In this document: positions 9,846-63,461 of the stretch, one piece after another
Numbering within the stretch: position 1 is the first letter of the stretch
Layout: every line of letters starts with the position of its first letter
Assembly: GCF_016595495.1 (NCBI RefSeq)
Contig: NZ_JAENIM010000008.1
Coordinates: 124,001 to 188,000, forward strand
Direction: 5' to 3'
Origin: Persicirhabdus sediminis
GTDB taxonomy: Bacteria; Verrucomicrobiota; Verrucomicrobiia; Verrucomicrobiales; Akkermansiaceae
Length of the DNA: 64,000 bases
Made by a program: the position numbers and the translations under genes
Notes under the pieces: model-generated
Databases searched by the model: none
What the model was told of the DNA's origin: nothing
What the model saw: the letters and a program-made list of their open reading frames with translations, nothing else

Positions 9846-9890
9846 TTAGATTAGATTTTAAATTCCAGCTGGGATATTCCTAGCTGGCGA

Positions 9891-28076: not shown

Positions 28077-28117
28077 TTTTTTTGCAATCTTCTCAACCTG
28101 AGTTACCTGTAGAGATT

Positions 28118-29975: not shown

Positions 29976-30040
29976 CTGTAGTGTCTCGCTCCTTCGGACC
30001 TTTTTCCGGGTATAATGATATCGCGATAGTTACTGGAAAG

Positions 30041-32331: not shown

Positions 32332-33864
32332 CTATTGCCCGACCCCGCCGGTGCTCTCCAGTTTCTCATCGAGGCTCTCGGAGTTTTTAGCAGCCGCCTT
32401 TGAGGCAGGAGGCCAATCAGCGAAGGTTTTCAAATGCTTCTGCACAATCCTTTGAGCTGGGCCAAATGCCCACATCTTTTTCCCCATCCACTCGATATAC
32501 ATGCCCGATTCTTCAGCCGCTCTCTCCAGTGGATCCTGTCGCAGGTTGAAAAGTAAGGGCGCAGTGAGCTCCTCCTTGGCGCCCGACCACCCCTCATTCT
32601 GAACAATGAAATGAGCCTTCCAGTCACCATATCTCACCGCCTGCAGCGTAGTGCGTTCGTAGTAGATGATCTCCTTCCGGTTCGACTCACCAGCACCGGT
32701 CAGCATAGGAATTTGATTGTAGCCGTCCAAGTGGGCCTTGTGTCCGTTGTAGCCGGTCAACATCTGCTGCTTCAGATCCTCTGGGCCACCAGCGGCAGCT
32801 ACGAGGGTGGGAAGAAGATCCATTGAATCGATGATGCCGTTGTTGATCGATCCCTGCTCAACTTTGCCAGGCCAACGCAGCAACATTGGCACACGAACTC
32901 CACCCTCCCATGTCGTGCCCTTTTCGCTCTTGAAAGGGGTCATTCCACCGTCAGGCCAAGTCATAATTTCAGGTCCGTTGTCAGCAGAGAAAATGACAAT
33001 CGTATTTTCGGCTACGCCCAGCGTATCTAGTTCGTCGAGAACCTCACCCACATGATCATCGAGGTCCCTCATCACGACCTCTTGAAGCCCTTGTCCGTCC
33101 TGACCGAGCATGGCTTCATACTTCGGTGAGAGGTGCGTCCAAACGTGAGCACGAGAAGGACAATGCCACACAAAGAACGGCTCCTTCTTGGCCACGGAAT
33201 CCCGGATAAATTTCAGGGTGTGCTTGTTGACCTCGTCATCGAGAGTTTTCATACGCTCGGGAGGAAGCGGCCCATCGTCGATGATCTTTTGAGTTCCCTC
33301 ACCGGTCGACCAGCAGTGGACGACATTCCTTGGGGCGAACTGCGCGGCCTCCTCGCCCTTCGGAAACTCGGGATCAGAGGTATATTCCATGGCGTTCAGG
33401 TGGTAGAGCCACCCCCAAAACTCATCAAATCCATGCATTGTGGGCAGGAACTCATCGCGGTCGCCCAAATGGTTTTTGCCGAATTGCCCGGTCCGGTATC
33501 CAAGTTCTTTGAGCAACTCCGGCAGGGTGGGAGTATCTGGGCTCAGGCCGATAGGATCCCCAGGCAAGCCAACCGTGTGCATTCCAGTGCGGACTGGAAA
33601 CTGCCCTGTGATCATTGCTGATCTGCCGGCGGTGCAGGTTGGTTGTGCGTAGTAGTCGGTGAAAAGCATGCCTTCCTTCGCGATGCTGTCGATGTTAGGG
33701 GTTTTGCTGCTCATCAAGCCGCGGTGATAGGCGCCGATATTCAGGAGCCCAACATCGTCGGTGAGAATAATGAGAATATTGGGTTTCGAAGTCTCCGCTA
33801 GCAAAGGGGCCTGATTTAGGGAGATTGCGATAACTGCGAATAGGAGTGTTTTGATTGGTTTCAT
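32332..33864 (-). CDS. Secreted sulfatase (type I, C-x-A-x-R)
   Basis: 510 residues from ATG 33864 (MKPIKTLLFAVIAISLNQAP is the signal; earlier in-frame ATGs would bury it). Sulfatase fold: metal site PNILIILTDDVG, then the maturation motif C77-T-A-G-R81 in which Cys becomes formylglycine, GQFGKNHLGD, and the late FSADNGPE metal site. It hydrolyses sulfate esters, probably of an algal or animal polysaccharide. By eye its codons are more C-rich and AGCTGG words are scarcer than in neighbours, so lateral origin is possible. It is followed upstream by two giant surface proteins on the same strand. Confidence 0.94.
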   Translation of the reverse strand: MKPIKTLLFAVIAISLNQAPLLAETSKPNILIILTDDVGLLNIGAYHRGLMSSKTPNIDSIAKEGMLFTDYYAQPTCTAGRSAMITGQFPVRTGMHTVGLPGDPIGLSPDTPTLPELLKELGYRTGQFGKNHLGDRDEFLPTMHGFDEFWGWLYHLNAMEYTSDPEFPKGEEAAQFAPRNVVHCWSTGEGTQKIIDDGPLPPERMKTLDDEVNKHTLKFIRDSVAKKEPFFVWHCPSRAHVWTHLSPKYEAMLGQDGQGLQEVVMRDLDDHVGEVLDELDTLGVAENTIVIFSADNGPEIMTWPDGGMTPFKSEKGTTWEGGVRVPMLLRWPGKVEQGSINNGIIDSMDLLPTLVAAAGGPEDLKQQMLTGYNGHKAHLDGYNQIPMLTGAGESNRKEIIYYERTTLQAVRYGDWKAHFIVQNEGWSGAKEELTAPLLFNLRQDPLERAAEESGMYIEWMGKKMWAFGPAQRIVQKHLKTFADWPPASKAAAKNSESLDEKLESTGGVGQ

Positions 33865-34209
33865 ATGCATGGGGTGGAATCTGTTACGAGTCTCAGTGAA
33901 TAGGGGTAAGCTTTCTGCACTAACGTAAAGCATATCGACCGAAGACATCGACCGAGAAGCTTTGGTGTTGGGCTTAATTTTTTAGTGTAACTAACTAATG
34001 TTGATTGAAATATATAATCAGTCAATGATCTAATCAGGCAATGAAATAGCTAAGCCGCTAGATATCTTTAGCTGGCTAGCAGATAGCTCTAGCAGGGCGC
34101 TTGTTTTGCTGATTGAGTGGGCAAAAATAAACCCAGCTGGAATGAGATCCAGCTGGGTTTGATAGAGGTGGTTTTTCTAGCTGGCTGATGGTTAGCCAGC
34201 TGGAATAGA
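33865..34209. other. Spacer between sulfatase and giant gene 1, with two hairpins
   Basis: 345 bp. It contains the strong terminator at 34129-34160 and a second hairpin (agctggct / agccagct, 34179-34186 / 34194-34201). The block 34090-34210 is closely similar to 30365-30484. Otherwise A+T-rich; no ORF. Confidence 0.6.
34129..34160 (-). terminator. Terminator of giant gene 1
   Basis: Perfect 13-bp stem aaacccagctgga / tccagctgggttt (34129-34141 / 34148-34160), loop atgaga, then tttatttttg on the minus strand. Confidence 0.93.
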
Positions 34210-37200
34210 TTATTCGATAATCATGCGATAGAACACGGGATTGCTTTCGATAGGCACGATGAGTGCCCAGTTTTGCACGCTGTTATTTTCTGATAGCAGT
34301 TCGGTATCGAGGTCGTCGCTATCGACATCTTTCCAGCTACTCATGTCATTTGATTTCTGCCATTTGTGGCTGAGCCCTTGCGCTTCGGTATTGAGTGAGA
34401 AGGCGATTTGCAGTTCACCGTTGCCAACAGGGGTAGGTAGATAGATGGAGCTGCCGGCGCTATTAGGATCGGTACCGAGGTAGTATTCCTGCATGTTAGT
34501 GAAGCCGTCACCGTCGGCATCTTCGGTAGCTGCTTGTAGCTGCTGGGCTACATTTTCCGTGCTTACCCATTGGTTGTAGTGGGTATTTGGGAAGTTGTCG
34601 CCAATCACCGCCATGCGCAGTTCCATGAGGGTGAAGTTAGCATCAGGTCCGTAGATGAGGACGGTATCAAACGCGCGGGTATAGTCGAAGCTGAAGCGCG
34701 AGTGGTAAGGCGAGCTGTCAGCGATATCGGCGTTGTGTAGTGAGTCGATCACGATGCCATCAGCACCACCAGCCAGCAGGTAGATTTCCATGCCGTTATC
34801 ACGGTGAGTGAGTGCGTTTTTGCTGCGGCCGTAGAGGTCCATGACTAACTTAAGACCACTAGCCACGGCGACACCTTCTGGGACCTCATAGTAGAGGAAG
34901 GACCCTGAAGTTTTATTGTTGGCATGGAATCCGTTGGATGCGGTGCCTTGAGCGGGGCGCACCAGCGTTGGCTCGTAGACGTCGTAGGCAAATAGATCAT
35001 CGAGGGTTTTGGCAATGGAGCCACCGTATCCAGAGCCTGTGGATAGATCACTTCTGCTGACAAGTGGCACGAGATCGGCAGAGCTGTCTAGGTGGACAGG
35101 ATTCTGGTAGATTATTAAGCTAAATACTCTGCTCAGCTGGTAGCCATATGGATCTGTGACGAGGACTTCGGCGTCGAAGCTGGTGATATCAGCTGGCAGC
35201 GCGGAGCCGTCGTTGATGCTGATGGTGCCTGTGTTGGCATCAATTTTCAGCGTGCCGTTGAGGTCATCAACTAGTTCGTAGAGGTGTTGGTCGAATTCAT
35301 TAATATCCTCAATGGTAACGGTGGCAACGACAGCTCCGTCATCCGCGTGTGGGTTGATCACGGAAACCTGGGTGAGCTCAAGAGCACTTGGCGGCATAGC
35401 GGCCAGACCAGCGACATCTTCAGCGAGCAGGGTGGTTTTGAACACCGAGACTTTGCTGATTTCACCTTGCCAATGGTCGCTAGCTGAATGTGTGCTGGCT
35501 AGCGTGAGTGTGGTTGCCTGAGCTAGCTGGCTGGAAAATTCACCTGAGGCGACTAAGTTGCCGTTGAGGTAAATGGCAGCCTCGTGTCCATTGACGGTAA
35601 ATGCGTAGTGATGCCAGTCAGTAGCGGCGTGAGACAGCATGTAGCTGATTTCGCTGTTCTTGTAGCTGAGTACCATTTCGCCCTTAGCTGATAGGCTGGC
35701 TGTTAATGGCTGGGATTCAGTCTGCATTTCAAAGAGAACCTGCTTGGCGGTGGAGGCGTCATTGACTCTAGCCCAGCTGGAGAAGCTGAATTGGCCATCG
35801 ATGTCGCTAACAGCTTGCTCAGGGATCTCTAAGGACGCGGCATCCGTATAGAGGCTTGGGCTGTTGACTTGATTACTGAACGAGCGGTAGTAGTCGCCAC
35901 TTGGGTGGGCGTTGTTGCCCAGGCCTGAGATGTCGTTGATGTCTTCGCCAAATTCCTCGTAGCTGAGGTAGCTACCAACTTCACCTAGGTAATGCATGTT
36001 GACTTGGTGAGCGCTGAGCGTCTTGCGGTAGAGGAAGATTTCATCCATTGATGTCATGGAGTAGTCATTGCCGTCAGAATTAGCCGCAAAAGTAATGGTT
36101 GCGAATGTGGTAGGAATGTTAGTTGGCTGGGTCAGTGTATTGGTGAGTTGGCCATTGACGTACATTTCTAGCTGCTCGCCGTTGTATTGAACCACAAAGT
36201 GAGTCCACTCATATTCCTCGAATTTGCTAGGGCTGACGGTAGTAGAAACTTTACTGTCGCCATTGAGGTAGGCGCGCACGCCGTTGTTGCTGCGGTGTTC
36301 AATCCACATGCCTTTGCCTTTGCCGTTGTTCATCTGGAAGATGCGCGTATGGTCGCCGGTTTCGTTACGTTTGAGCCAGAAGGCGATGGCAAATTCATCT
36401 GAATGGCTACCGATCTCGGCAACTAATTCGCTAGGTAGTGAGGCGTATCCGCCAGTGAAGCTGATGGCTTTACCATAGGCGCCGTCATCGATGATCTCGT
36501 AATCGCCGATCAGGCTGGCTTCGTAGCCGTTGTTGCGAAGGTCGTCCATTTTGCCAGCTTCGAAGTTGAACCAGCTGAGTGTACGCGGCAGCACTTGGAT
36601 TTGAATGTCAGCATCTGTGTTGTTGAGTGCATCGCCAACGTTGTAGCGGATTTTATCAAAGCCAGTGAATCCGAAGTCGGGCACGTAGTGAACGGTATTG
36701 CCTGTGACGACGTATGCGTATCCTTCTTCGATTTCTTCGAGCTCGGCGAGTTCAAGAACTTCGTTTTCCTCATCGGTATCATTGGCGACGGGGTCAAACT
36801 CTAGGATGTCATTTTCTACCATGACGTAGCTATCTTCACCAACGATTGGCGCCTGGTTCGCTCTGAACATGGCGGTGACCGTGTAGGTAGATTCGGTTAG
36901 CTCAGCAGCTGAGCGGTCGATGACCTCTTGGTAATCACCACCGTCAGGCATGACTTCTACCGTGTAGGTGTATATGCGATCCAGGTAGGCGTCGATGTGC
37001 AGTTGGTCGATCTGGTAGTTTTGTCCTAGGTCGATGACAATTTCCTGAACGGCCCCACTAGCTGACCAGCGGTTATCGTCGTCCTCGCTGATGCCATCGA
37101 TAGCTTCAGTCGCAGGGTTTTCCTCTTGCTGCGCGGTGACGGATTCAATGGATTTGTTGAGCGCCACATTCACGCCATTGCTGAAGACTTCGATCTCGCG

Positions 37201-40200
37201 CAAGGAGACCCAGCTTTCACCGTGCAGGTTATTGGTGGTAAGTTTTACGTAGCGGCCAGTGGTTGGTTCAATGTCGATGACATCTGGGTAATCACCAGTG
37301 ATCACGGTAATGGTGATCTCGTGCTCGGTATCAAATAGCTCAGTCTCGGAAAGCAGGCCGTCTTTGAGCAGGGTGATTTCACCTGTCTGCGCATCAATTT
37401 CTAAATATCCATCGAGGTCAGAGTTTTTCGTGCTGATAGAGTAGCGGTGTTTATCTTCAGTATTGAGGTCGTTAGCCTCCACAGTGGAGATGACGTCGCC
37501 AATCTGCGACACTTGTGAGATGAAGAGGATGTCACCTTCAATGTCATACTGGTTAGTAAAGGTGAGTGAGCTAGGTTCAGCGCGTGACGCTGCGTAGGCA
37601 GTTTCATCATCCAGCGCGGAAGTGTAAACTTTGATCTCATCAAGCAGAGCATAGTGTGGTGATGAGCCGTTGGCTTTTTGACCAATAAATAAGCGGTCTA
37701 GCTCGAGGTCGTCGGTTTGAATGCCTGTCTTGCTAGCGACAAGTAGACCATTTTGGTAGAGACGCAGTTGGGCATTTTCAGCATCGCGCACGACCACCCA
37801 GTGGTCGTAGAGAGCAGACGTCATTGGGGTAGTTAAGACGGCTGTAGTCGCATCCGATCCAGCTGTAAGAACAAGCTTAGAAGCATTGTTATTGGATAAG
37901 CTCATTACCGTCTGGCCGCTGGCATTGATGCCGTGGATGATGGTGGCTGCACTCGCAGGGTCTGTTGATTTCATCCAGAACGAGGCTGAGAAGGTCGCTG
38001 ATTGCTTGAGTTCATCAGCTAGCGGGAGTTCGATGGCGCCAGCTGTGAGGTCGATGCCAGCACCAATGGCGCCACTAGTAGTTGCGCTAGCGCCGAGGCT
38101 GAGCTGGTTATGTTGAGCATAGATGCTGAAGTCTTTCAGCTGGCCATTGGGCATGCTTTCCCCTTTGTAGGCGAGCACATTGTTGAGGGCGTCATCTTTG
38201 ATGCGTTCGGCGCTGAGGACCTGGTTGTAGATGCGGAGTTCGTCAATATCAGCTGAGCATCGGCCCAAGGTTAGAGTAGCTAGCTCAGTGAGGGCTCTGG
38301 ATTTGCCACTACCGCTGGAAACCAATTCACCATTGAGGTAAATTTTCAACGAGCCGGTAGTATTGTCTTTGGTGACTGACCAGTGCTGCCAGATATCATC
38401 GGCTACCCTGTTTGAGGCCGTCAGGTTGTCGTTATTACTTTCGTCGCGACCTAGAACTACGCGGAAGTCGTCATTTTTATATGGCATGTAGACGATGAAG
38501 TCATTGAAGCCATCGGTATTGACACCAAGCAGGAGCTCGCGGCTGCCGCCAGAATCAGCATCCATTCTTGCCCAGAAGGAAATGGTCAGCTGCGATTCAA
38601 TGCTGTCGAGAATGGTGGTTGGTAGCTGGAATTCATCACCTGAATCACTGAGTCTAAAACTCAAGTTGCCACCCCAGATACCGTCGCTTTGCCAGCTGCT
38701 GGATTCTGGTGTGTCTGTCCAGCCGTGTAGGCCATTGCCTGAGGAGTCAAGCAGCTGGCTGTCTCCTGCTGATCCATCCATTTTATAGTGAGCCACCAGC
38801 CCTTGGCTGAGCAGGCGAATGGAAGCGGTGTAGCTGTTGTTTTGGCTATCAGTAGCGGTGTATTCAAAATCAGTAGATCCCACAAATGGTCCTTTTGGGG
38901 TGAAATAGACAGATCCGTCGTCGAGGATCTCAGTACTGTAGTAGTCGTTGTTGCTGACGCTTACCACCATCAGTGAGTCATTTTCTGGAGAAATATCATT
39001 GGCGAGCAGGTCATAGGAGAATGCCAGACCTTGTTCGCTGACAATCACATCGTCCATCGCGCCAGGAGTATCACAGTAGATATATTGTGTGGCGTCACTT
39101 GTGCCCTCCAGGGAAACGGCGATCTTGATGCGGGCGCGACCAGAGGCGCCAGTTGGCGTCACGGTCATGATATTGCCTGAGACGGAGACGTTGGCGACGT
39201 CGGCATTGTCGATCACTTCAGCTTCACAGATGAGCTCTTCATTAAACCCGTGGAAATAGTCGCTTAGGTCGATTTCTACTGGCGTTTGGTCACCCTGTGA
39301 GAGGGCGTAGACATTGGGCAAATAGCGGGTGATGCGTGGCGTTTCATACAAAACTGCGCCATCGCTAGTGCCTTCCAGGTAGGAAATACCAAGCCAATCG
39401 TCGCGGGTCAGCGCGCCAGATGGGATGGGAGCGCCATTGTAGCGGATGCCTGTGCCATATTGGGCTTCAATATCGCTATTGGTCATGCCGGCGATGAGTG
39501 AGCTCGTGCTCTCAGCTGGCATTGGCATGTAGTCGTCTGCCTGTTGGACAGACATGTGCATGGCTATTGGGGTATTGGCAAAATTATCAGGGTCAAATGT
39601 GAAGTAGCTGCGAACACCAAAATTGGTGCCTACGATATTGTTAATTGCTCCACCAAACCCATCGATGGGTTTATTCCACATGTATATATTAGCTGGTTCA
39701 ACAGGAGTTTTGCCATCATCGATGACTCGTTGTTGGTAGTTAGCTAGCGCTTGCTGTGAGAGGCTGCCAAATTCAATATTTCCCTGAATCAGCTGCCTAT
39801 TTGGTTTGTTCCAGTTTTTGCTTAGCGTGATATTAACAACATTGTTGAGGTAGGCGTTGTACAGGTATGACGTGCCCTGGCGAGGAGATGATTCGTAACC
39901 ATTCACAAATCCTTCAATATGGGCATTCATGATGTCCCATCCACCAGTGTTGTGGAATGCTTTGTAGCCGGTGCCTGATGGATTATTGAGGTCGTTGACC
40001 AGAGTGAGACCGTTGACCGTAACGGCGCCAGAATACCATCGGCCCATGCCTGAACTGACGCTCCAGCCAGTGAAATCTTCGATGAGACCTTTAAACCCAC
40101 CGCCGCTGCGACCGAGTCGGTGCCCATCGCGCTGCACCGCGTAGGCGGTATTGCCGCGGAAGTTCTGTAAGTTCTGGTGAGGAGAAATGGTGCCTTCCCA

Positions 40201-41730
40201 TGGTGAGAGTGCGTGTTTCTCAGGGTCGCTAGTATATGCAGCTGGCAGTTCCTTGATGACTTTTGGCAAAGCACTGTGCGAGTGGTCAGGTTCTACCCAT
40301 GTGGTGAATCCAGAGCCGGTGGTACCAGAGGCCACGTTGTCGATGACGTCCATATTGGTGGATGTCAGCCAGAACCCCATGCCGCCGCCGCCGCTGTTGC
40401 GGCCAGGTCTGAGGTAATCCGCAGTGAGGGTGCGGATGGAAACGTTGTTGATGAAGGCGCCAAGTTCGTCGCCAGATTCGGCAACGTAGGCTGCGCCAGC
40501 GACATCGTAGCTCACGCAGTCTTCCACAATCGCGTGGCTGGAATGCACCACGTATCCCCAGCCAGGGCTGGTATCTACGGCACAACCACGGATGATGCCG
40601 GGAGTGCGGTTCACGCCATTGAGGTGGGCCATGTGAAAGTGCATCGCGTAGCGGGCCACTGGGTTGATCGCTGGCTCGCTTACTGAGGTAGACGAGGTGA
40701 CGGCTTCGCGTGTAGTGGCTTTTAAGTTGGTGCGGCCGAGGTTTTGGAACTCGACGAATTCGCAGACCACGTCGTTGTGGTGCATGAACATGATATGTCC
40801 ACGACCAGGAAACTCAGTGATCGTGCTGCGTCTATTATGCCACGGGTCGTCGTGTACCACGGTGTCCGCCAAGTGTGATTCTTCAGACTTAAAGACGATG
40901 TTGCGGTTGAGGTTAATGATGTGAATTTCCAACTTCTCCTGAACCGTCGCTGTGGATGCGGTGGGTGGAATGTGATCCAGCTCAAGCGGCTGATCTATGG
41001 TGATTGTTTTGGCGTTGCTGTTGACGGCTACTAGGTAGCGAATTTCATCACCCTCAACATCATCGTAGCTGTCTGTAGCGATGACGAGTTTGTCGCCGGC
41101 TTTCCAGTTGCTAGGAACTTCTTTGACGTTAATGACAGTAGAGCCAGCTGCAACGCCGCTAGTCACAGCGTAGGGTGATTTGGCTGAGCCATAGGCGCGT
41201 ACGGGGCCGTTAGCTAGCAGGCCAAGACCAATTTTCAGCGGATCGTAGTCGGCGGAATCGGAGTCGAGCACAAACCCATCTTCTCTATCATCAAAGATGA
41301 TGGTGGCGGTGACATTGTCTTGAATTGGCTGGCTGGAGCTACCGATTTCGAGGTAGCCCGATTCAGAAGTGACCAATGTTTCAACACGCAGCTGGGTGTT
41401 GCGGTTATGTTTGAAAGTAAGTTCGCCGTCGACGCGGATGGTGCGCAGCGATTGATCGTAGATGCCGTTTACCTGTACGGAGATGCCTTCGGGAATCAGC
41501 ACGCGGGAATCGTCAGTAGGTATTGTACCTGTATCCCAGATGCTAGTATCAGACCAGTTGCCATCAGCGATGGCGACGTGGGTGACATGTTCGTAGGCTA
41601 CCAGTGCCACACCGTGGCGATGTTTCGCTACTGGGCTGAGGTGCATGTCCATATCCATCTCTTCCTGGCCAATGGCCGAGATGGGGAGAAGCAGTGGGGT
41701 GAGAGAGGCTAGTATGTATAGAGCTCGCAT
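34210..41730 (-). CDS. Giant secreted G8/beta-helix/LamG protein, copy 1
   Basis: 2506 residues from ATG 41730. Signal peptide (1-22) then a short His/Met/Asp-rich start (EEMDMDMHL, KHRHG). Domains by eye: G8 (~48-190, WSDTSIWDTGTIP, NGPVRAYG); right-handed beta-helix of CEMIP type (~200-600, MHFHMAHLNG near 360, GWGYVVHSSHAIVEDC); cadherin-like/Ig (~820-970); LamG (~977-1180, LVAHYKMDGS); LamG (~1187-1390); cadherin (~1400-1480); discoidin F5/8C (~1488-1600, TTGRYVKLTTNN); cadherin-like (~1630); two more LamG (~1720, ~1917); cadherin (~2118); an acidic thrombospondin-3-like repeat (~2400, DADGDGFTNMQEYYLG); end FYRMIIE. G8 proteins such as CEMIP bind or cut hyaluronan, so a sulfated-polysaccharide adhesin or lyase is inferred. 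A paralogue lies directly upstream. Confidence 0.9.
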   Translation of the reverse strand: MRALYILASLTPLLLPISAIGQEEMDMDMHLSPVAKHRHGVALVAYEHVTHVAIADGNWSDTSIWDTGTIPTDDSRVLIPEGISVQVNGIYDQSLRTIRVDGELTFKHNRNTQLRVETLVTSESGYLEIGSSSQPIQDNVTATIIFDDREDGFVLDSDSADYDPLKIGLGLLANGPVRAYGSAKSPYAVTSGVAAGSTVINVKEVPSNWKAGDKLVIATDSYDDVEGDEIRYLVAVNSNAKTITIDQPLELDHIPPTASTATVQEKLEIHIINLNRNIVFKSEESHLADTVVHDDPWHNRRSTITEFPGRGHIMFMHHNDVVCEFVEFQNLGRTNLKATTREAVTSSTSVSEPAINPVARYAMHFHMAHLNGVNRTPGIIRGCAVDTSPGWGYVVHSSHAIVEDCVSYDVAGAAYVAESGDELGAFINNVSIRTLTADYLRPGRNSGGGGMGFWLTSTNMDVIDNVASGTTGSGFTTWVEPDHSHSALPKVIKELPAAYTSDPEKHALSPWEGTISPHQNLQNFRGNTAYAVQRDGHRLGRSGGGFKGLIEDFTGWSVSSGMGRWYSGAVTVNGLTLVNDLNNPSGTGYKAFHNTGGWDIMNAHIEGFVNGYESSPRQGTSYLYNAYLNNVVNITLSKNWNKPNRQLIQGNIEFGSLSQQALANYQQRVIDDGKTPVEPANIYMWNKPIDGFGGAINNIVGTNFGVRSYFTFDPDNFANTPIAMHMSVQQADDYMPMPAESTSSLIAGMTNSDIEAQYGTGIRYNGAPIPSGALTRDDWLGISYLEGTSDGAVLYETPRITRYLPNVYALSQGDQTPVEIDLSDYFHGFNEELICEAEVIDNADVANVSVSGNIMTVTPTGASGRARIKIAVSLEGTSDATQYIYCDTPGAMDDVIVSEQGLAFSYDLLANDISPENDSLMVVSVSNNDYYSTEILDDGSVYFTPKGPFVGSTDFEYTATDSQNNSYTASIRLLSQGLVAHYKMDGSAGDSQLLDSSGNGLHGWTDTPESSSWQSDGIWGGNLSFRLSDSGDEFQLPTTILDSIESQLTISFWARMDADSGGSRELLLGVNTDGFNDFIVYMPYKNDDFRVVLGRDESNNDNLTASNRVADDIWQHWSVTKDNTTGSLKIYLNGELVSSGSGKSRALTELATLTLGRCSADIDELRIYNQVLSAERIKDDALNNVLAYKGESMPNGQLKDFSIYAQHNQLSLGASATTSGAIGAGIDLTAGAIELPLADELKQSATFSASFWMKSTDPASAATIIHGINASGQTVMSLSNNNASKLVLTAGSDATTAVLTTPMTSALYDHWVVVRDAENAQLRLYQNGLLVASKTGIQTDDLELDRLFIGQKANGSSPHYALLDEIKVYTSALDDETAYAASRAEPSSLTFTNQYDIEGDILFISQVSQIGDVISTVEANDLNTEDKHRYSISTKNSDLDGYLEIDAQTGEITLLKDGLLSETELFDTEHEITITVITGDYPDVIDIEPTTGRYVKLTTNNLHGESWVSLREIEVFSNGVNVALNKSIESVTAQQEENPATEAIDGISEDDDNRWSASGAVQEIVIDLGQNYQIDQLHIDAYLDRIYTYTVEVMPDGGDYQEVIDRSAAELTESTYTVTAMFRANQAPIVGEDSYVMVENDILEFDPVANDTDEENEVLELAELEEIEEGYAYVVTGNTVHYVPDFGFTGFDKIRYNVGDALNNTDADIQIQVLPRTLSWFNFEAGKMDDLRNNGYEASLIGDYEIIDDGAYGKAISFTGGYASLPSELVAEIGSHSDEFAIAFWLKRNETGDHTRIFQMNNGKGKGMWIEHRSNNGVRAYLNGDSKVSTTVSPSKFEEYEWTHFVVQYNGEQLEMYVNGQLTNTLTQPTNIPTTFATITFAANSDGNDYSMTSMDEIFLYRKTLSAHQVNMHYLGEVGSYLSYEEFGEDINDISGLGNNAHPSGDYYRSFSNQVNSPSLYTDAASLEIPEQAVSDIDGQFSFSSWARVNDASTAKQVLFEMQTESQPLTASLSAKGEMVLSYKNSEISYMLSHAATDWHHYAFTVNGHEAAIYLNGNLVASGEFSSQLAQATTLTLASTHSASDHWQGEISKVSVFKTTLLAEDVAGLAAMPPSALELTQVSVINPHADDGAVVATVTIEDINEFDQHLYELVDDLNGTLKIDANTGTISINDGSALPADITSFDAEVLVTDPYGYQLSRVFSLIIYQNPVHLDSSADLVPLVSRSDLSTGSGYGGSIAKTLDDLFAYDVYEPTLVRPAQGTASNGFHANNKTSGSFLYYEVPEGVAVASGLKLVMDLYGRSKNALTHRDNGMEIYLLAGGADGIVIDSLHNADIADSSPYHSRFSFDYTRAFDTVLIYGPDANFTLMELRMAVIGDNFPNTHYNQWVSTENVAQQLQAATEDADGDGFTNMQEYYLGTDPNSAGSSIYLPTPVGNGELQIAFSLNTEAQGLSHKWQKSNDMSSWKDVDSDDLDTELLSENNSVQNWALIVPIESNPVFYRMIIE

Positions 41731-42357
41731 GATTGTAGGGTCGTCGTTCAAAATCAGTCTGACTGATTATGTGGGGGAGCTTCGGGGATACAAATGACTG
41801 GGTCGCCAAGAGGTATGGTGTGGTCTGTATTGAGGTCGTGGTTAACACTCAGGTCGCAGCTTTGCTTGGTGATTAAGCTAGGCCATGTTTCCTGTCCTGA
41901 GTTGTTTATACATTTTCAATACGAGATCACTGATAGAACTATCGATTCTAACCTGTATTATCAAGGTTGAAAAATGCCGTTTGTTTAGATTTTTCAATGA
42001 GTTCCGGGAGATAAACGGTTTAGTTTGATTTGGCTGATCAACAGAAAGATTGTTTGATGGATTCAGCCTATGCTCACGGAAATCAGTAGTTTAAGAAGCT
42101 TGGGGGCTGCTGAGTTTACATGTCACTTGCTGTTGCTGAACCGTTTAGCTGGTGGATGACACAAGGTGTTAATTAAATTAGTATAACATGTTAAATTTAG
42201 CAGATTTTCAGCTGATATTTTCAGTAGGTGAGAGGACCCTAGATTGTTCGTAATTGATTTTTGCAGATAAATCAATGATGCGGACACAAAAGACCCAGCT
42301 AGAAATGCTTCTAGCTGGGCCGGTTGAAGGTCTATCTATTTGAGCTAGTGGAGTGGA
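41731..42357. other. Spacer between the two giant genes
   Basis: 627 bp, A+T-rich, without a gene. The part next to copy 1 (the gtgggggagct element near 41771-41781) recurs in front of copy 2 (gtgggggagct near 49910-49920), so the upstream region was duplicated with the gene. The terminator of copy 2 is at 42294-42319. Confidence 0.6.
42294..42319 (-). terminator. Terminator of giant gene 2
   Basis: 11-bp stem cccagctagaa / ttctagctggg (42294-42304 / 42309-42319), 4-nt loop. On the minus strand tcttttgtg follows. Confidence 0.85.
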
Positions 42358-45300
42358 TTATTCAATGATCATGCGATAGAAAACTGGCTGGTCATCGATA
42401 GGCACGATGAGGGCCCATTCTTGCACATTACCAATTTCAGCCATCAGCTGGGTATTGATCTCTTCGTTGGCGAGCTCGGTCCATGACACCATGTCATGAG
42501 AGATCTGCCAACGGTGGCTGAGCCCCTGAGCGTCAGTATTCAGCGAGAACTTAATTTGCAGTTCTCCATCCTGAGTTGGAGTCGGCAGGTAAATGCCGCT
42601 ACTTGTGTGATTAGGATCGGTACCGAGGTAGTACTCTTGCATGTTGTTGTAGCCATCACCATCAGCATCGACGGTGGCTGCTTGCAGCTCTTGGGCGACA
42701 CTCTCCGCGTTGACCCACTGGTTGTAGTGGGTATTTGGGAAATTATCAGCAATCACTACCATGCGCATTTCTAGCAGGGTGAAGTTAGCATCCGGACCGT
42801 AGATCAAGACGGTGTCAAAGGCCCGCGTATTGTCGAAGCTGAAGCGCGAGTGATATGGCGAATTATCATCGATGTCCACATTGAGCATGGAATCAATGAC
42901 GATGCCATCAGCGCCACCAGCGAGCAGGTAGATGTCGATGTTATTATCGCGATAGGTCACTGAGCTGCTGTTACGGCCGTAGAGGTCGATGACAAATTTC
43001 AGCCCATTGGCTACGGCGACACCCTGTGGGACCTCGTAGTATAGGTAGGCTCCAGCGGATTGGTTTTTGGTGCGGAAGCCGAAGTTGACATCTTCTTGCT
43101 CCGGCAGCTCAAGCGCTGGCTCGTAGGCGTTGTAATCAAACACGTCGTTGAGAGTATCGGCTACCGAGCCCTTAAATCCATTGCTTGAGATATCATCGCG
43201 GGCTGTTAGCGGAACCAGATCAGCGGAGGCCTCAAGGTAGCTAGGATCTTGATAGATGATCAAGCTGTAGGCTTTGCTGAGCTGGTAGCCAGCTGGATCG
43301 GTGAGTAGGATCTCAATGTCGAAGCTAGAGATATTAGCTGGCAGCAGAGAGGCATCGGCAATGCTGATGGCGCCCGTATTGGCATCAATCTGAAGTGTGC
43401 CGCTAAGCTCGTCAACGAGTTCGTAGAGGTGCTGGTCAGTGGTATTGAAATCTTCGATCTCAATGGTGGCGATGATTTCACCAGCTTCTGAGTACGGCGT
43501 GATGACGGCAACTTGGGTAAGCTCAAGTGATGTCGGTGGCAGAGCCGCTAGCCCGACTATATCTTCAGCTGACAAGGTTGTCTTGAAGATATTCAGCTGG
43601 CTGATTTCACCCTGCCAATACTCGCTGGACGAATGAGTGCTAGCCGCGCTCAGTGAACTAGCCTGGCCTAGCTGGCTGGAAAACTCACCTTCAGCAACGA
43701 GCAAGCCGTTGAGGTAAATGGATGCATGAGATCCATTCACGGTGAATCCATAGTGATGCCATTCACTGACTTGATTAGCCACATCGTAGCTCACTTGGCT
43801 GCCATTGAAGCTGAGGACTATTTCTCCACTAGCGGATAGGCTGGCGATCAGCGGCTTGGACTCTGTTTCTAGCTCAAACAAGACTTGGGGGCCGTCTTGG
43901 ATTTCATCCACTTTGGCCCAGCTGGCAAAGGTGAATTGGCCATTGATAGCTGAGACCGCCTCAGCTGGAACATGCAGCGACGCCGATTGGGTAGTCAAAC
44001 TGGCGCTGTGCAAAAAGTCGCTGTAGTTGCGGTAATAATCACCAGCAGCATGGATGTGGTTGGCCATGCCGGAAATGTCGTTGATATCTTCGCCGTATTC
44101 TTCGTAGCTGAGGTAGCTGGCGACTTCACCTAGGAAGTGGCGGTTGACTTGATTCGCCGACAGCGATTTGCGGTACAGGTGGATTTCGTCAAACGACGCC
44201 AGTGAGGTGGAATTGCCGTCGCTATTGGCAGCGAAGGTGATGGATTCGAATGTATGCGGCAGGCCAGCTGGCTGAGCGATGGTATTTTTCAACTCACCAT
44301 TGACGTATATTTCCAGCTGCTCGCCGTTGTATTGCACCACAAAATGAGTCCATTCAAACTCATCAAAGTGACTCGCACCAACGTTGGCATAAGTTTTTTC
44401 ATCACCTTTGATCCAGACTCGCAGAGCGTTGCTATCACGTTGTTCAATCCAGATGCCTTTGCCGCTGCCATCATTCAGCTGGAATAAGCGAACATGGCCA
44501 GCTTCCTCAACAAACTTTGTCCAGAATGAGATGGCAAATTCATCTGAATGTTCATTGAGCTCAGCAACGAGCTCACTAGGGAGTGACGCGTATCCTCCAT
44601 TGAATTTGATGGCTTTGCCAAAGGCGCCGTCGTCAATGATTTCGTAGTCGCCGGTGAAGTTTGCTTGATAGTTGCCGTGGCGCACTTCGTCCATCGTGCC
44701 GGATTCGAAGTTGAACCAGCTGAACATGCGCGGAAGCACTTCAATATCGATGTCAGCGTCGACGTTGTTGAGTGTGTCACCCACGTTGTAGCGAATTGAG
44801 TCGAACCCGCTAAACCCATAGTCAGGCACGTAGTGAACCGTATTGTCAAAAATAACGTATGCGTGACCATCTTCCATTTCTTCGAGCTCGGCGAGCGTGA
44901 GGTGCTCATTTTCCGCATCAGTATCATTAGCGACCGGATCAAATTCGAGGATGTCATTTTCAATCATGACGTAGCTATCCCCACCAACCACAGGCGCTTG
45001 GTTTGCCTTAATCATGGTTGTCACCGTGTAGTTAGTTTCCTGCAATGTAACAGACGCGCGGTTGACAACTTGTTGATATTCGCCGCCCTCAGGCATGATC
45101 TCCACAGTATACGTGTACAGTCGGTTCAGGTAGGCGTCGATGTGTAGTTGATCGATCTCGTAGTTCGCGCCGAGGTCGATAACCACTTCGTTAGTTTTAC
45201 CTTCAGCTGACCAACGGTTAGCGTCGTCATCAATGATGCCGTCGATGATGTTAGTCGCTGGGTTCTCATCTTGCTGGCCACTCACTGAAGCAATGGTCTT

Positions 45301-48300
45301 GTTGAGGGCAACATTGACACCCTCGCTGAAGACTTCGATTTCTCTGATAGAAACCCAGGTGTTGTCGTGTTTGTTATTGGTTTTGAATCTAACGTAACGA
45401 CCAGTCGTCGGGGTAATATCGATAACATCTGACAAATCGCCAGTGAGCACGGTGATAGTGATTTCGTGTTCGGTATCAAAGAGCTCAGTTTCGGATAGGA
45501 GTTCGTCTTTGTGTAAGTAGATTTCGCCAGTCTGGTTATCAATTTTCAAATACCCGTAAACATCAGTACCATCGTCATCTAGCAAGTAGATGTGTTTGTC
45601 CTCGGCATTCAGGTCATTAGCGGTAACGGTAGAAACAAGATCGCCAATTTGCGAAACTTGGGAAATGTAGAGAATCTCATCAGCCTCGCCATATTGGTTG
45701 GTAAAGGTCAACGAGCTCGGCTCTTCGCGTGAGGTTTCGTAAGCAAGTTCATCACCAAATGCTGAGGTGTAAACCATGAGTTCATCAACCAAGGCATAAT
45801 GCGATGCGGAGCCGTCAATATTTTGGCCAATGACGAGACGGTCGAGGTCCAGCTGGCTATTCTGGCTGATTGAATTTTGCGCAACTAATACGCCATTTTG
45901 ATAGATTCTGAGCTCAGCTAGATCGGCGTCTTTTACCAAGATCCAGTGGTTATAGAGTGAGGAGTCCATTGCGGTTGTTAGGTCCGCAGTGGTATTGTCT
46001 GCACCTACTGACCAGCTCACTCTAGATGCGCTCGAGTTAGATAATTTCATCACCGTCTGACCGGTCTCATTGATACCATGCAGGATCGTTGAAGCCGTTG
46101 TTGGATCACTGGATTTCATCCAGAATGAGATGGAGAAGTTAGAAGCATTTTTCACTTCATCAATCATTGGAAGCTCGAGGCCAGCCACGGTGAGGTCAAT
46201 GCCTTTACCCAGCGCACCATCGTTGATTGAGCTAGCGCCTAACTCTAATGCGTTATGTTGGGAAAATGCGCTAGAGTCAGCAAGGTAGCCATTTTGCAAT
46301 GTCTCACCACGGTAGCTGAGAACGCCTCCGAGTGCGTCATCTTTGATGCGCTCAGCGGTGAGGATGTGGTTGTAGATACGCAGATCGTCAATGTCAGCTG
46401 AGCACCCGTTTCCGAGAGTGAGAGAAACGAGATCGCTAACGGATCTATTTTTACCAGAGTTGCTGCCAACCTGCTCGCCATTGAGATACAGGTACATTTT
46501 ACCAGTTTCTGTATCTTTGGTGATAGACCAATGCTGCCATTGGTCGTAGATCATATCATCTTTCACCGTGAAGGTATCGAGGCCGCTGTCATCACGCCCT
46601 GAGGATATTCTTACATCGTAGGCGGTGTAGGGAGTAAAGATATTGAAGACGTCCTGGCCAGCTGAGTTGAGGCCTTGCAGCATCTTGTTTTGATTGCTGG
46701 TATCACCGTCGACTCTGGTCCAGAAGGTGATCGTGTATTGTGATTCAATGCTATCAAAGATGGCGGCAGGCAGCTGGAAATGGTCAGCTGATTCGCTTTC
46801 TCTAAAGCTTAATGATTGGCCCCAAATGCCGTCGTCTGCCCAGTGGCTGTTAGCTGGTGAATCTGTCCAGCCGTGCAGACCATTGCCAGATGAATCAAGC
46901 AGCTGGCTGTCACCGGCGGAACCGTCCATTTTGTAGTAAGCAACGAGTCCTTGGCTGAGCAAGTTGATAGTTGCTGTGTAGCTAGTATTCTGGCTGTCCT
47001 GAGCGGTGTAGACCAAGGTGGTGGTGCCGACAAATGGCGCGGTTGGGGTGAACAGGATTGAGCCGTCACGGAGGATTTCAGTAGCGTAATAATCGTTGGC
47101 GGTGACGTCGGTCACTTGCAGGGAATCACCCTCTGGAGAAATATCATTAACCAAAACATCGTAGCTGAATTCTTGGCCTTGCTCGCCAACAATGAAATCA
47201 TCCATCGCCCCGGGCGTATCGCAGAAAATATATTGAGTCGAGGTGCCTGAGTCTAGCACGGAGGCTGACACTTTAATGCGAGCGCGGCCAGAGACTCCAG
47301 ATGGAGTCACTGTGAGCTGGGTACCAGAAATGGAAGCACTAGCGATATCGGCATTGTCGATGACTTCAGCTGAGCAAATCAGTTGCTGGTTAAATCCATG
47401 GAAGTATTCGCTCAAATCGATCGTCACGGGAGTTTGATCACCTTGGGCGCTGGCGTAGACATTGGGCAGGTAGCGAATGTGACGCGGTGAGTCGTAGAGC
47501 TTGGAGCCATCGCTGGTATTTTCCAGATAGTGAATGTTCAACCATTCTGGGCGGGTGATGGCATTGTTTGGGATGCCGGTGCCATTAAGGCGGATGCCGG
47601 TGCCGTATTGAGCTTCCACTTCGCTATTAGTCATGCCAGCGATCACCGTCTTGGTGCCCTCGGGCATCAGCACGTAATCGTCAGCCTGTTGGGCCATGTG
47701 AATAGCCATCGGCGTATTGGCAAAATTATCTGCGTCAAAAGTAAAGTAGCTGCGATAGCTCAAGTTGTTATAAACATTGTCAATCAAGCCACCAAAGTCC
47801 GTAGCCTTTTTGGTATCCATGTTCATGTCCGCCGGTTCTTTTGGCGTCTCTCCCATGTCGATGACACGCTGCTGGTAGTTAGCAATTGCCTCAGCTGAGA
47901 GTTGCTCGAAAATGATCTCACCTTGCACAAACTGCTTATTGGGTTTGTTCCAGTTTTTATTCCACTCGATGTTAACGACGTTTTTGAGGTAGGCGTTGTA
48001 TAAATACGAGGTACCTTGGCGTGGTGATGATTCGTAGCCGTGCACAAAGCCTTCGATGTGGGCATTAAAGATGTCCCAGCCACCAGTGTTGTGGAATGCT
48101 TTGTAGCCGGTGCCTGATGGATTATTGACATCGTTAACCAGCGTCAGGCCATTGACGGTCACGCCACCAGAGTACCAGCGGTCCATGCCAGACTCGACGC
48201 TCCAGCCAGTGAAATCTTCGATGAGTCCTTTGAATCCACCACCACTGCGGCCTAAACGGTGGCCGTGGCGTTTTGCAGCATAGGCGGTATTACCACGGAA

Positions 48301-49869
48301 ATTCTGCATGTTCTGGTGGGGTGAGATGGTCTCGTCCCACGGTGATAGACCGTGCTTTTCAGGATCGCTTGTATAGGCAGCTGGCAACTCCTTGATGACT
48401 TTTGGCAAGGCGCTGTGGGAATGGTCGGGTTCTACCCAAGTGGTAAATCCAGAGCCGGATGAACCAGAGGCCACGTTGTCGATCACATCCATGTTAGTAG
48501 ACGTCAGCCAGAAGCCCATGCCGCCACTACCGTTATTGCGGTTTGGTCTAGCTGAATCTGGCGTGATAGTGCGGATAGATACGTTGTTGATAAAGGCGCC
48601 TAACTCATCACCTGACTCGGCAACGTAGGCAGCGCCAGCAACATCGTAGCTGACACAGTCCTCAACAATCGCGTGGCTGGAGTGAACCACGTACCCCCAG
48701 CCTGGGCTGGTATCTACGGCACAACCGCGGATGATGCCCGGCGTGCGGTTCACGCCATTGAGGTGGGCCATGTGAAAGTGCATCGCATAGCGGGCTACTG
48801 GGTTGATCGCTGGCTCGCTCACGCTAGTGGATGAGGCGAGAGCTTCGCGTGTGGTGGCCATCAAGTTGGTGCGGCCTAAGTGGCGAAATTCGACGTATTC
48901 ACAGATCACATCGCTGTGGTGCATAAACATGACGTGGCCACGGCCAGGAAATTCTGTAATCGTGCTGCGTCTATTATTCCATTGATCGTCGTGATCTACG
49001 CTGTCAGCTAGGTGAGATTCTTCGGACTTGAGAATGATGTTGCGGTTCAGGTTGATGATGTGAATTTCTAACTTCTCCTGAACCTCTGGTTTGCTCGCGC
49101 TTGGCGGCATGTGATCCTGCTCTAGCGGCTGATCGATGGTGATAGTTTTTGCGTTGCTGTCGACGGCTACGAGGTAGCGGATTTCATCGCCCTCAATGTC
49201 ATGGTAGCTGTCGGTGGCGATGACGAGTTTGTCGCCGGCTTTCCAATTGCTAGGAACTTCTTTGACGGCAATGACGGATGTGCCTGCGGTGACTCCACTG
49301 GTCACGGCGTAGGGTGATTTGGCTGATCCATAGGCGCGCACTGGGCCGTTAGCTAGCAGACCAAGACCAATTTTCAGCGGATCGTAATCGGCTGAATCTG
49401 AGTCGAGCACAAACCCATCTTCTCTGTCATCAAAGATGATGGTAGCTGTGACATCGTCGTGAATTGGGTTTTCCGCAGTACCAATTTCAAGCAAACCTGT
49501 TTCGGAAGAAACTAATGATTCCACTCTCAGCTGGGTACTAACATCTTGTTGGAAACTTAGCGTGCCGTCGACACGGATGGTGCGCAGTGATTGGTCGAAT
49601 ATACCATCCACTAGAACCGTGAGCCCTTCGGGAATCAATACGCGAGAATCGTCAGCTGGCAGGGTGCCTGTATCCCAGATGCTAGAATCCGACCATTCGC
49701 CATCAGCGATGGCTACGTGAGTAACATGCTCGTAGGCTACTAAGGCGACCCCGTGGCGATGTTTGGCTACTGGACTAAGGTGCATGTCCATGTCCATCTC
49801 TTCTTGGGCAATGGCCACGAGAGGGAGAAATAGGGGAAAGAGTGAGGCTAGTTTGTATAGAACTCGCAT
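42358..49869 (-). CDS. Giant secreted G8/beta-helix/LamG protein, copy 2
   Basis: 2503 residues from ATG 49869, a tandem paralogue of the product of 34210-41730 with the same domain order and nearly the same length. Long blocks in the G8 and beta-helix part are identical (IFDDREDGFVLDSDSADYD; MHFHMAHLNG; GWGYVVHSSHAIVEDC), while the LamG, cadherin and discoidin parts differ more. Most indels are short and in frame. Signal peptide 1-21, His/Met-rich start, and end FYRMIIE are shared. A surface-exposed polysaccharide-binding or degrading role beside the sulfatases is inferred. No cell-wall or PEP-CTERM anchor is seen, so attachment is unknown. Confidence 0.9.
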   Translation of the reverse strand: MRVLYKLASLFPLFLPLVAIAQEEMDMDMHLSPVAKHRHGVALVAYEHVTHVAIADGEWSDSSIWDTGTLPADDSRVLIPEGLTVLVDGIFDQSLRTIRVDGTLSFQQDVSTQLRVESLVSSETGLLEIGTAENPIHDDVTATIIFDDREDGFVLDSDSADYDPLKIGLGLLANGPVRAYGSAKSPYAVTSGVTAGTSVIAVKEVPSNWKAGDKLVIATDSYHDIEGDEIRYLVAVDSNAKTITIDQPLEQDHMPPSASKPEVQEKLEIHIINLNRNIILKSEESHLADSVDHDDQWNNRRSTITEFPGRGHVMFMHHSDVICEYVEFRHLGRTNLMATTREALASSTSVSEPAINPVARYAMHFHMAHLNGVNRTPGIIRGCAVDTSPGWGYVVHSSHAIVEDCVSYDVAGAAYVAESGDELGAFINNVSIRTITPDSARPNRNNGSGGMGFWLTSTNMDVIDNVASGSSGSGFTTWVEPDHSHSALPKVIKELPAAYTSDPEKHGLSPWDETISPHQNMQNFRGNTAYAAKRHGHRLGRSGGGFKGLIEDFTGWSVESGMDRWYSGGVTVNGLTLVNDVNNPSGTGYKAFHNTGGWDIFNAHIEGFVHGYESSPRQGTSYLYNAYLKNVVNIEWNKNWNKPNKQFVQGEIIFEQLSAEAIANYQQRVIDMGETPKEPADMNMDTKKATDFGGLIDNVYNNLSYRSYFTFDADNFANTPMAIHMAQQADDYVLMPEGTKTVIAGMTNSEVEAQYGTGIRLNGTGIPNNAITRPEWLNIHYLENTSDGSKLYDSPRHIRYLPNVYASAQGDQTPVTIDLSEYFHGFNQQLICSAEVIDNADIASASISGTQLTVTPSGVSGRARIKVSASVLDSGTSTQYIFCDTPGAMDDFIVGEQGQEFSYDVLVNDISPEGDSLQVTDVTANDYYATEILRDGSILFTPTAPFVGTTTLVYTAQDSQNTSYTATINLLSQGLVAYYKMDGSAGDSQLLDSSGNGLHGWTDSPANSHWADDGIWGQSLSFRESESADHFQLPAAIFDSIESQYTITFWTRVDGDTSNQNKMLQGLNSAGQDVFNIFTPYTAYDVRISSGRDDSGLDTFTVKDDMIYDQWQHWSITKDTETGKMYLYLNGEQVGSNSGKNRSVSDLVSLTLGNGCSADIDDLRIYNHILTAERIKDDALGGVLSYRGETLQNGYLADSSAFSQHNALELGASSINDGALGKGIDLTVAGLELPMIDEVKNASNFSISFWMKSSDPTTASTILHGINETGQTVMKLSNSSASRVSWSVGADNTTADLTTAMDSSLYNHWILVKDADLAELRIYQNGVLVAQNSISQNSQLDLDRLVIGQNIDGSASHYALVDELMVYTSAFGDELAYETSREEPSSLTFTNQYGEADEILYISQVSQIGDLVSTVTANDLNAEDKHIYLLDDDGTDVYGYLKIDNQTGEIYLHKDELLSETELFDTEHEITITVLTGDLSDVIDITPTTGRYVRFKTNNKHDNTWVSIREIEVFSEGVNVALNKTIASVSGQQDENPATNIIDGIIDDDANRWSAEGKTNEVVIDLGANYEIDQLHIDAYLNRLYTYTVEIMPEGGEYQQVVNRASVTLQETNYTVTTMIKANQAPVVGGDSYVMIENDILEFDPVANDTDAENEHLTLAELEEMEDGHAYVIFDNTVHYVPDYGFSGFDSIRYNVGDTLNNVDADIDIEVLPRMFSWFNFESGTMDEVRHGNYQANFTGDYEIIDDGAFGKAIKFNGGYASLPSELVAELNEHSDEFAISFWTKFVEEAGHVRLFQLNDGSGKGIWIEQRDSNALRVWIKGDEKTYANVGASHFDEFEWTHFVVQYNGEQLEIYVNGELKNTIAQPAGLPHTFESITFAANSDGNSTSLASFDEIHLYRKSLSANQVNRHFLGEVASYLSYEEYGEDINDISGMANHIHAAGDYYRNYSDFLHSASLTTQSASLHVPAEAVSAINGQFTFASWAKVDEIQDGPQVLFELETESKPLIASLSASGEIVLSFNGSQVSYDVANQVSEWHHYGFTVNGSHASIYLNGLLVAEGEFSSQLGQASSLSAASTHSSSEYWQGEISQLNIFKTTLSAEDIVGLAALPPTSLELTQVAVITPYSEAGEIIATIEIEDFNTTDQHLYELVDELSGTLQIDANTGAISIADASLLPANISSFDIEILLTDPAGYQLSKAYSLIIYQDPSYLEASADLVPLTARDDISSNGFKGSVADTLNDVFDYNAYEPALELPEQEDVNFGFRTKNQSAGAYLYYEVPQGVAVANGLKFVIDLYGRNSSSVTYRDNNIDIYLLAGGADGIVIDSMLNVDIDDNSPYHSRFSFDNTRAFDTVLIYGPDANFTLLEMRMVVIADNFPNTHYNQWVNAESVAQELQAATVDADGDGYNNMQEYYLGTDPNHTSSGIYLPTPTQDGELQIKFSLNTDAQGLSHRWQISHDMVSWTELANEEINTQLMAEIGNVQEWALIVPIDDQPVFYRMIIE

Positions 49870-50306
49870 GATGTTAGGGTGATTGATGGGAATCAATTGA
49901 AAGTAATTGGTGGGGGAGCTCTGGATTTTATCTGACTAATCTATTGTTAGTAGTTAGTCAGTTGTTGGGTTGTGGAAGCATTGTCATTTCATCATTTCAA
50001 ATGGTGGATTTGGCAGTAATTGGCTACTGATTTGAATGAATATTCTGACGCTTTTTGAACCCTCTAGGTGCGCATTAGTTACGGGCAAGATTCGCTAGAT
50101 TCAAGCTGTATTAACTACATATTATGATATTTGATAACAAATTTAACACCTTAACGATTTAGTTTTTAAGCGCCTATTGCTAAAGGACTAGAGCTTATGT
50201 TCTTAGTGAAAATTGAGTGACAAAATTGTTACTTCGGTGTTTGGATTTTTGCTGATTTTTTAAATTTCCTTGTATGAAATAAATTATCCATTTTCATGAT
50301 CACACG
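49870..50306. other. Divergent promoter region, giant gene 2 / sulfatase 2
   Basis: 437 bp, markedly A+T-rich, no ORF. It must hold the promoters for both divergent genes, making shared control of the giant protein and the sulfatase possible. I could not fix a -35/-10 pair with confidence. Confidence 0.45.
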
Positions 50307-51764
50307 ATGAGAAGACTTTTTATGAACGCCCTGCTTTCGCTGTTAGGGTTGAGTGCTATTTCAGCTGAGGAGAAACCTAACTTCATCATGTTATTGGTAG
50401 ATGACATGGGCTGGGGCGATACAGGTTTTAATGGTCATCCGGTGATCAAGACACCAAACCTAGACCAAATGGCTGAAAATGGGCTGAAGATGAATCGTTT
50501 CTATTCGACTAACTGCACGTGTTCACCATCGCGCGCTGCCATTCTAACTGGCCGTCACAATCTGCGATTGGGGCTCACGGGATTCATGTCGACGCCGAGC
50601 GACGAAAACCCAGGGACATGGCATTTGCTAGAATCTGAGATTACCTACGCAGAGGCATTGCAAGAAGCTGGTTATGCTACGGCGCATTTTGGCAAATGGC
50701 ATGTCGGCTACATGTGCCCAGAGCAGAGCCCGGAACATTATTTCACTCCAGGCATGGCTGGGTTTGAGGAATGGTTTACCTCTCACAATGTCCTCTACAC
50801 TTACGATCCCTATCAGGCGCTGCCACCCGGCAAGGACGAGAAGCATCTTTATTATGATCAAGGAAAATTGATTACTCTAGCGGAAGGGCAAAAGCGGCCA
50901 GAATTACGCCGCGATGATACCACGATTTTGATGGATCGCACGCTGGATTACATCGAGCGCATGCACGAGCAGGGGAGGCCATTTGCGGTGGCGACGTGGT
51001 TTCACCACATGCACGGTCCGCTGAGCCAGAACCCAGATTTGCTTTCCTTGTATCCAGCTGGCTTGCCAGCTGACGAGGTGAAATACTATTCAAATGCCAG
51101 CTCGATAGATATAGAAGTGGGCCGGCTGCGCGCTAAGCTGCGTGAGTTAGGCATTGCCGACAATACGATGATTCTTTTCACCAGTGACAATGGGCCAGTT
51201 GGCGGCACGCAATTTCGCGATAGGCTCAATCAAGGTGAAAGCCACGGTGGGCGATTTGTGTATGGCTTTAGAGGATCAGCTGGACCATTCCGCGGCGGCA
51301 AATACCACCTTGGCGAAGGTGGCATTTTGGTGCCGGGCGTGATTGAGTGGCCAGCGCAGCTGAGTCAGCCAGCGGTGACCGATGTGCCGCTGGTGCAGAC
51401 CGATTATTTTCCAACCGTGCTGGAGGCCGCTGGAGTGGCGATGCCTGACGACCGCGAATACGATGGTATTTCTTGGATGCCATTATTTAGAGGGGAAAAG
51501 CTAGCGCGACCTCGTGGCATTGCTTTTTCATCTGGCCGCCAGCGTGCGTATCGCAATGACACATACAAGGTGGTGAGCGAGGACAAGCAGCCAGAGTTTA
51601 CCCGTCTGTACAACCTGCTGGATGACCCGTACGAGGAGAAGAATTTGGTGAAAGAAAACCCCGAGCTTTTTGAATCTATGGTCAAAGAATACGAACAGTG
51701 GGAGCAGAAGGCGTTGGCTGACTGGCAGGTGATGCTAGTCAAAGATAAAGAGCGGAAACAATAG
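50307..51764 (+). CDS. Secreted sulfatase (type I, C-x-P-x-R)
   Basis: 485 residues from ATG 50307, with a signal (1-20, NALLSLLGLSAISA). N-terminal metal site PNFIMLLVDDMGWGD, canonical motif C72-S-P-S-R76 with AAILTGR after it (an extra Cys at 70), HFGKWHVG, and FTSDNGPVGG for the second metal site. It needs a formylglycine-generating enzyme, not found in this window. It differs clearly from the sulfatase at 32332-33864 (different motif, shorter), so the two should cut different sulfate esters. It is divergent from giant gene 2. Confidence 0.95.
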   Translation: MRRLFMNALLSLLGLSAISAEEKPNFIMLLVDDMGWGDTGFNGHPVIKTPNLDQMAENGLKMNRFYSTNCTCSPSRAAILTGRHNLRLGLTGFMSTPSDENPGTWHLLESEITYAEALQEAGYATAHFGKWHVGYMCPEQSPEHYFTPGMAGFEEWFTSHNVLYTYDPYQALPPGKDEKHLYYDQGKLITLAEGQKRPELRRDDTTILMDRTLDYIERMHEQGRPFAVATWFHHMHGPLSQNPDLLSLYPAGLPADEVKYYSNASSIDIEVGRLRAKLRELGIADNTMILFTSDNGPVGGTQFRDRLNQGESHGGRFVYGFRGSAGPFRGGKYHLGEGGILVPGVIEWPAQLSQPAVTDVPLVQTDYFPTVLEAAGVAMPDDREYDGISWMPLFRGEKLARPRGIAFSSGRQRAYRNDTYKVVSEDKQPEFTRLYNLLDDPYEEKNLVKENPELFESMVKEYEQWEQKALADWQVMLVKDKERKQ

Positions 51765-63346: not shown

Positions 63347-63461
63347 GATCAGAAAAAATTCAAACCATATACTAGACATAAACAGCCGCAGTCGGCGATG
63401 AAATTTAGTTTAAATATTTGTCAGCAATGAGATGATTTTGTCTTGGCTGATAGTTAGGATA

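Follow-up and report, generated by a model that had tools for sequence, protein, structure and literature searches.

A tandem pair of giant secreted G8/beta-helix proteins in Persicirhabdus sediminis with a conserved N-terminal module and a more divergent tail

Introduction

Why do two neighbouring giant genes keep one part of their proteins nearly alike and differ more in the other, and what might the conserved part do? This question is raised by a locus of Persicirhabdus sediminis (Verrucomicrobiota) in the window, that is, the whole stretch of 64,000 nucleotides that was analysed (contig NZ_JAENIM010000008.1, positions 124,001 to 188,000). The original prediction described two tandem paralogues, here called A and B, and offered strong constraint or gene conversion on the helix, or diversification of the binding domains toward different glycans, as possible reasons. 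In the present study, we have compared the two proteins and their coding sequences with each other, with control pairs and with the closest known systems.

Results

Genes A and B, with 2513 and 2512 codons, lie in tandem and are flanked by one sulfatase gene on each side. The domains named beforehand (G8, beta-helix, LamG, cadherin and discoidin) were all detected by Pfam in both proteins, and the outer limits had been placed correctly: A ends with its stop codon at 34210, and the ATG of B has its first base at 49869. In both proteins the order by Pfam is leader, G8, CEMIP-type beta-helix, Big_9, two LamG, cadherin-like, F5/8, cadherin-like, two LamG, a cadherin-like stretch, an undefined domain and a TSP3 repeat. 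The G8 domain reached 52.1 and 52.7 bits in A and B (Pfam cut-off 22.9), and CEMIP_beta-hel 45.3 and 50.4 bits (cut-off 27.3). The features are as follows.

34210..41730, minus strand: protein A, giant and secreted, with G8, beta-helix and LamG parts; its likely ATG, at 41730, precedes a signal-peptide-like leader
34210-41751, minus strand: open reading frame of A, open as far as a TTG at 41751
42358..49869, minus strand: protein B, tandem paralogue of A, from its likely ATG
42358-49896, minus strand: open reading frame of B, called from a TTG at 49896 upstream of the ATG
41275..41538, minus strand: G8 domain of A, residues 72-159 (PF10162, E 7.5e-14)
49381..49677, minus strand: G8 domain of B, residues 74-172 (PF10162, E 4.9e-14)
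40285..40659, minus strand: CEMIP-type beta-helix of A, residues 365-489 (PF24606, E 1.1e-11)
48421..48798, minus strand: CEMIP-type beta-helix of B, residues 367-492 (PF24606, E 3e-13)
37552..38799, minus strand: LamG1-LamG2 of A, residues 985-1400 (Pfam), the least conserved part of the pair by regional identity
45697..46947, minus strand: LamG1-LamG2 of B (Pfam)
36862..37143, minus strand: F5/8 type C (discoidin) domain of A (Pfam)
45016..45288, minus strand: F5/8 type C (discoidin) domain of B (Pfam)
35422..36534, minus strand: LamG3-LamG4 of A (Pfam)
43567..44679, minus strand: LamG3-LamG4 of B (Pfam)
32332..33948, minus strand: sulfatase downstream of A on the same strand (PF00884, E 1.9e-51)
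50307..51764, plus strand: sulfatase divergent from B (PF00884, E 6.3e-47)

Comparison of the upstream regions of A and B gave short chance matches only and no further homology, thus the duplicated unit appears confined to the gene. Around the two stop codons, 46 nt matched at 83%.

Elsewhere in the window, about eight 29-nt tandem repeats occupy the intergenic positions 30040-30278, near a Y1 (IS200-like) transposase gene (28082-29230), and no further copy of their unit turned up in the genome. A 1625-codon gene (321-5198) carries a 351-nt tandem duplication (1411-2112, 96%) and an 18-nt repeat (3857-3958). A bacterial alpha-2-macroglobulin with the sequence CVEQT is encoded at 57617-63379, and a protein with Lcl_C domains and an arylsulfotransferase-like domain at 15237-18398.

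Along the whole alignment, 1767 of 2509 residues are identical (70%) and there are only seven gap positions. It had been claimed that the helix part keeps long identical blocks and the binding part differs more, and this was borne out: from G8 to the helix end 516/601 residues are identical (86%), and in the rest 1203/1849 (65%; Fisher p 4e-24). Even divergence along the genes, which would have contradicted that claim, was examined, and the divergence was found to be uneven, the variance of identity among 60-residue windows being greater than in all 5000 permutations (p 0.0002). By region, the identity was 0.79 in G8, 0.84 before the helix and 0.90 in the helix (361-660), vs 0.59 in LamG1-2, 0.72 in the cadherin/F5-8/cadherin part, 0.63 in LamG3-4 and 0.67-0.68 in the C-terminal parts. 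The longest identical protein run has 89 residues (alignment columns 355-443), and since the longest identical DNA run has only 49 nt, the identical blocks exist at the protein level and not at the DNA level.

The genome of the window contains six G8 genes, namely A, B, a second tandem pair (C16a and C16b) and two genes on separate contigs (C9 and C46). In the tree, A with B, C9 with C46 and C16a with C16b form three separate pairs, each fully supported, and C9 with C46 groups with Flavobacteriaceae (90/94). No orthologue of A or B was found in 260 family genomes, a phylum sample or the genome contigs searched, and at E 1e-20 any relative occurred in just 1 of the 260 family genomes, the window's own genome aside. 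Among phage records there was no match, and those in IMG/VR were distant.

To recognize the fold, a profile was required, because phmmer with the single sequence of A found nothing in PDB at E 0.01. The profile built from A, B and relatives matched the cell surface hyaluronidase TMEM2 (8c6i) with E 2e-13. The AlphaFold model of B 31-842 has a mean pLDDT of 66, with G8 mostly above 90, mixed helix turns and an unreliable last stretch of about 160 residues. A model of the C-terminal ~196 residues had a pLDDT of 35. The folding alignment left out proteins of some relatives' loci. With the B 31-842 model, the TMEM2 ectodomain was the best Foldseek match (E 5e-14), and by VIA-align TMEM2 reached Z 26.3 (rmsd 3.0, 501 residues aligned), followed by AlgE6 with Z 20.7. 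Judged by this model and the profile, the N-terminal module of A and B is a TMEM2-type G8/beta-helix. In the profile alignment, the insertion of TMEM2-type lectin-like domain 1 near the helix start is absent from the bacterial proteins: the stretch 161 to 337 of TMEM2, about 175 residues, is matched by only about 10 in the profile (positions 180 to 190).

Within the helix, six polar residues stand out as a candidate site.

48604..48789, minus strand: candidate active or metal site of B (Y370, H373, H375, H405, E427, E431), present in almost every relative and with aligned counterparts in TMEM2
40465..40650, minus strand: the same six candidate residues of A, numbered two lower, by sequence alignment

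In B numbering, the six residues are conserved across relatives from Pseudomonadota, Bacteroidota, Myxococcota, Cyanobacteriota, the window's own phylum and two contigs of a viral collection; the exceptions are a single E431D, in L026, and the partial row of L042, which is poorly aligned. The TMEM2 segments aligned to the six are RYPVHFH, VHG and LEDGIE. Counted along the 8c6i chain sequence in that alignment, the counterparts are Y465, H468, H470, H503, E526 and E530. In the B model, intervals of about 22-30 residues, taken with the predicted strands, place the six on consecutive turns of the helix, and we infer that they may be clustered in space. We hypothesize that the fold could have its catalytic or metal site here. 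The C16 proteins have lost all six, yet keep H279, R285, N286, H321, H326, R342, N365 and R369, which argues that the polar cluster is dispensable for folding. These giant G8 proteins, lying at L021 6424-14169 and L024 4124-11878, are without the conserved His/Glu cluster; C16a gave no CEMIP_beta-hel match in Pfam, and an alpha-L-fucosidase family gene adjoins the pair.

In one study the ectodomain of TMEM2 was reported to be without hyaluronidase activity (PMC10206443), and its status as an enzyme is disputed between groups (PMC10206443; PMC10276149, PMC10474455). The negative result, together with tails rich in adhesin-type repeats, would suit a module that serves without catalysis as a scaffold or adhesin at the surface, its polar cluster being structural or binding metal only. 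We consider such a role unlikely, though of some weight; against it stand the C16 pair, in which exactly the polar cluster was lost and the scaffold residues were kept, and the sulfatase context of A and B.

The silent sites of A and B bear on whether the helix is held alike by constraint or by gene conversion. From window to window along the pair, silent divergence reaches ~0.5-0.95 of saturation. In codons 421-660, the helix core and the best-conserved protein stretch of the pair, the silent difference is 0.432 vs 0.424 in codons 1500-end (p 0.87), and because the two are equal, the identity of the helix most likely reflects mainly constraint and not recent gene conversion. Two stretches depart from the rest.

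37453..39291, minus strand: A codons 821-1433, where A and B differ more at silent sites (0.549) than elsewhere (0.401; permutation p 0.007)
40492..41751, minus strand: A codons 1-420, where A and B differ less at silent sites (0.339) than elsewhere (0.457; boundary chosen post hoc; Fisher p 9e-5)

Such a non-uniform pattern is not predicted by protein-sequence constraint alone, and an old patchy exchange may have touched codons 1-420. The GY94 likelihood ratio for lower dS in these codons (p about 1e-11) was treated as a hint only, the dS estimates being at the upper bound in several regions.

Conversion between the tandem copies, which would keep their helices similar and leave the tails free to diverge, gains from this low stretch and from conversion-like tracts in the G8 family. 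A tandem G8/CEMIP pair of a flavobacterial MAG (F1 and F2 of L032, at 4686-9251 and 9632-14686) shares an exact tract of 662 nt (F1 nt 2681-3342) outside the helix, the remainder being about 85% identical. This tract, likely a recent conversion or else an effect of MAG assembly, served as a conversion-like positive control, and it looks different from the A/B pattern. In A and B, silent divergence is ordinary exactly where the protein is most conserved, the longest silent-identical run of 15 codons is not significant (p 0.13), and with the raised segment taken out no low silent segment was significant (p 0.36). Furthermore, the dispersed C9/C46 pair shows the same protein gradient, with 0.81-0.83 in the helix vs about 0.5-0.6 in the tail; in helix and tail alike, most silent sites are close to saturation. 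Between species, flavobacterial F1 and F3 have 0.49-0.57 identity in residues 301-600 and 0.18-0.40 past residue 800, a gradient that copy-to-copy conversion inside one genome cannot explain. Protein identity in the C16 tandem pair is flat along its length. Conversion as the main cause is therefore improbable, and strong constraint on the helix is the option which the silent sites and these three kinds of control pairs favour.

Positive selection of the LamG and F5/8 domains toward different glycans, to which the low identity of LamG1-2 would lend itself, likewise seems improbable, as dN/dS was below 0.45 in every 60-codon window with finite dS (a weak test of low power, dS being near saturation), same-position LamG domains are 59-65% identical vs 12-27% to all other LamG, indels are nearly absent, and pairs bearing other tail domains have similar tail identity.

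Overall, the uneven divergence of A and B is what a constrained module joined to a freer tail would ordinarily leave.

Discussion

Taken together, we find it probable that A and B go back to an old tandem duplication, with a module held by purifying selection and a freer tail, the module probably cleaving an anionic polysaccharide at the six-residue site. The ancestor would have been a large secreted polysaccharide-active protein. The N-terminal G8/beta-helix module of ~600 residues would be its working part, kept by purifying selection, and the LamG, cadherin-like and F5/8 tail a binding or spacer region under weaker constraint, so that the copies differ more there. The module would bind, and probably cleave, its substrate at Y370, H373, H375, H405, E427 and E431 on successive helix turns, and the sulfatases at the locus may take sulfate off that substrate. 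From the genomic context, A and B are likely secreted proteins that depolymerize or bind an anionic polysaccharide, probably a sulfated one; we read it so because of the two flanking sulfatases, the genome's 74 sulfatase matches (of which two look like halves of a single gene) and the alpha-L-fucosidase gene beside the C16 pair. Specialism on sulfated polysaccharides is described for marine Verrucomicrobiota (PMC8857213). The hyaluronan or chondroitin lyase activity suggested earlier would fit the fold family of the helix.

Among known systems, TMEM2 (CEMIP2) and CEMIP/HYBID are the closest, sharing the G8 domain and the CEMIP beta-helix, and the RYxxHFH, H and ExGxE motifs of TMEM2 align with A and B. 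Unlike TMEM2, A and B are secreted chains of 2,500 residues with LamG/cadherin/F5-8/TSP3 tails, and the bacterial proteins are without the ~170-residue stretch between aligned blocks that is the site of lectin-like domain 1. Bacterial proteins annotated as 'G8 domain-containing protein' (Leisingera and Antarctobacter plasmids; Flavobacteriaceae, Alteromonadaceae) have the same module, roughly 24-37% identical, with other tails; none is close, and A and B differ from them in four LamG domains, tandem arrangement and sulfatase neighbours. The right-handed beta-helices of AlgE/AlgG mannuronan C-5 epimerases, NosD and phage tailspikes have the same general fold (Z 17-21), but they score below TMEM2 and no sequence match was found.

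Against cleavage at the six-residue site stand the dispute over the activity of TMEM2, which is unproven even there, and the place of the substitutions reported to abolish it: they sit in lectin-like domain 1, and their positions are missing from the bacterial proteins. TMEM2 is reported to be most conserved within the beta-helix, and the location of its active site has been called an open question (PMC10206443). It is possible, though we say so tentatively, that the six residues serve the entire G8/beta-helix family, animal TMEM2 and CEMIP among them, as its catalytic (or metal) site, and that the C16 pair is a natural inactive version which keeps the fold for another use, e.g. glycan binding. 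A concrete set of residues to test is given by the bacterial relatives, which lack lectin-like domain 1, and by the loss of exactly one polar cluster in the C16 pair. The lasting value of the A/B case lies in this candidate site and in the natural comparison with the C16 pair.
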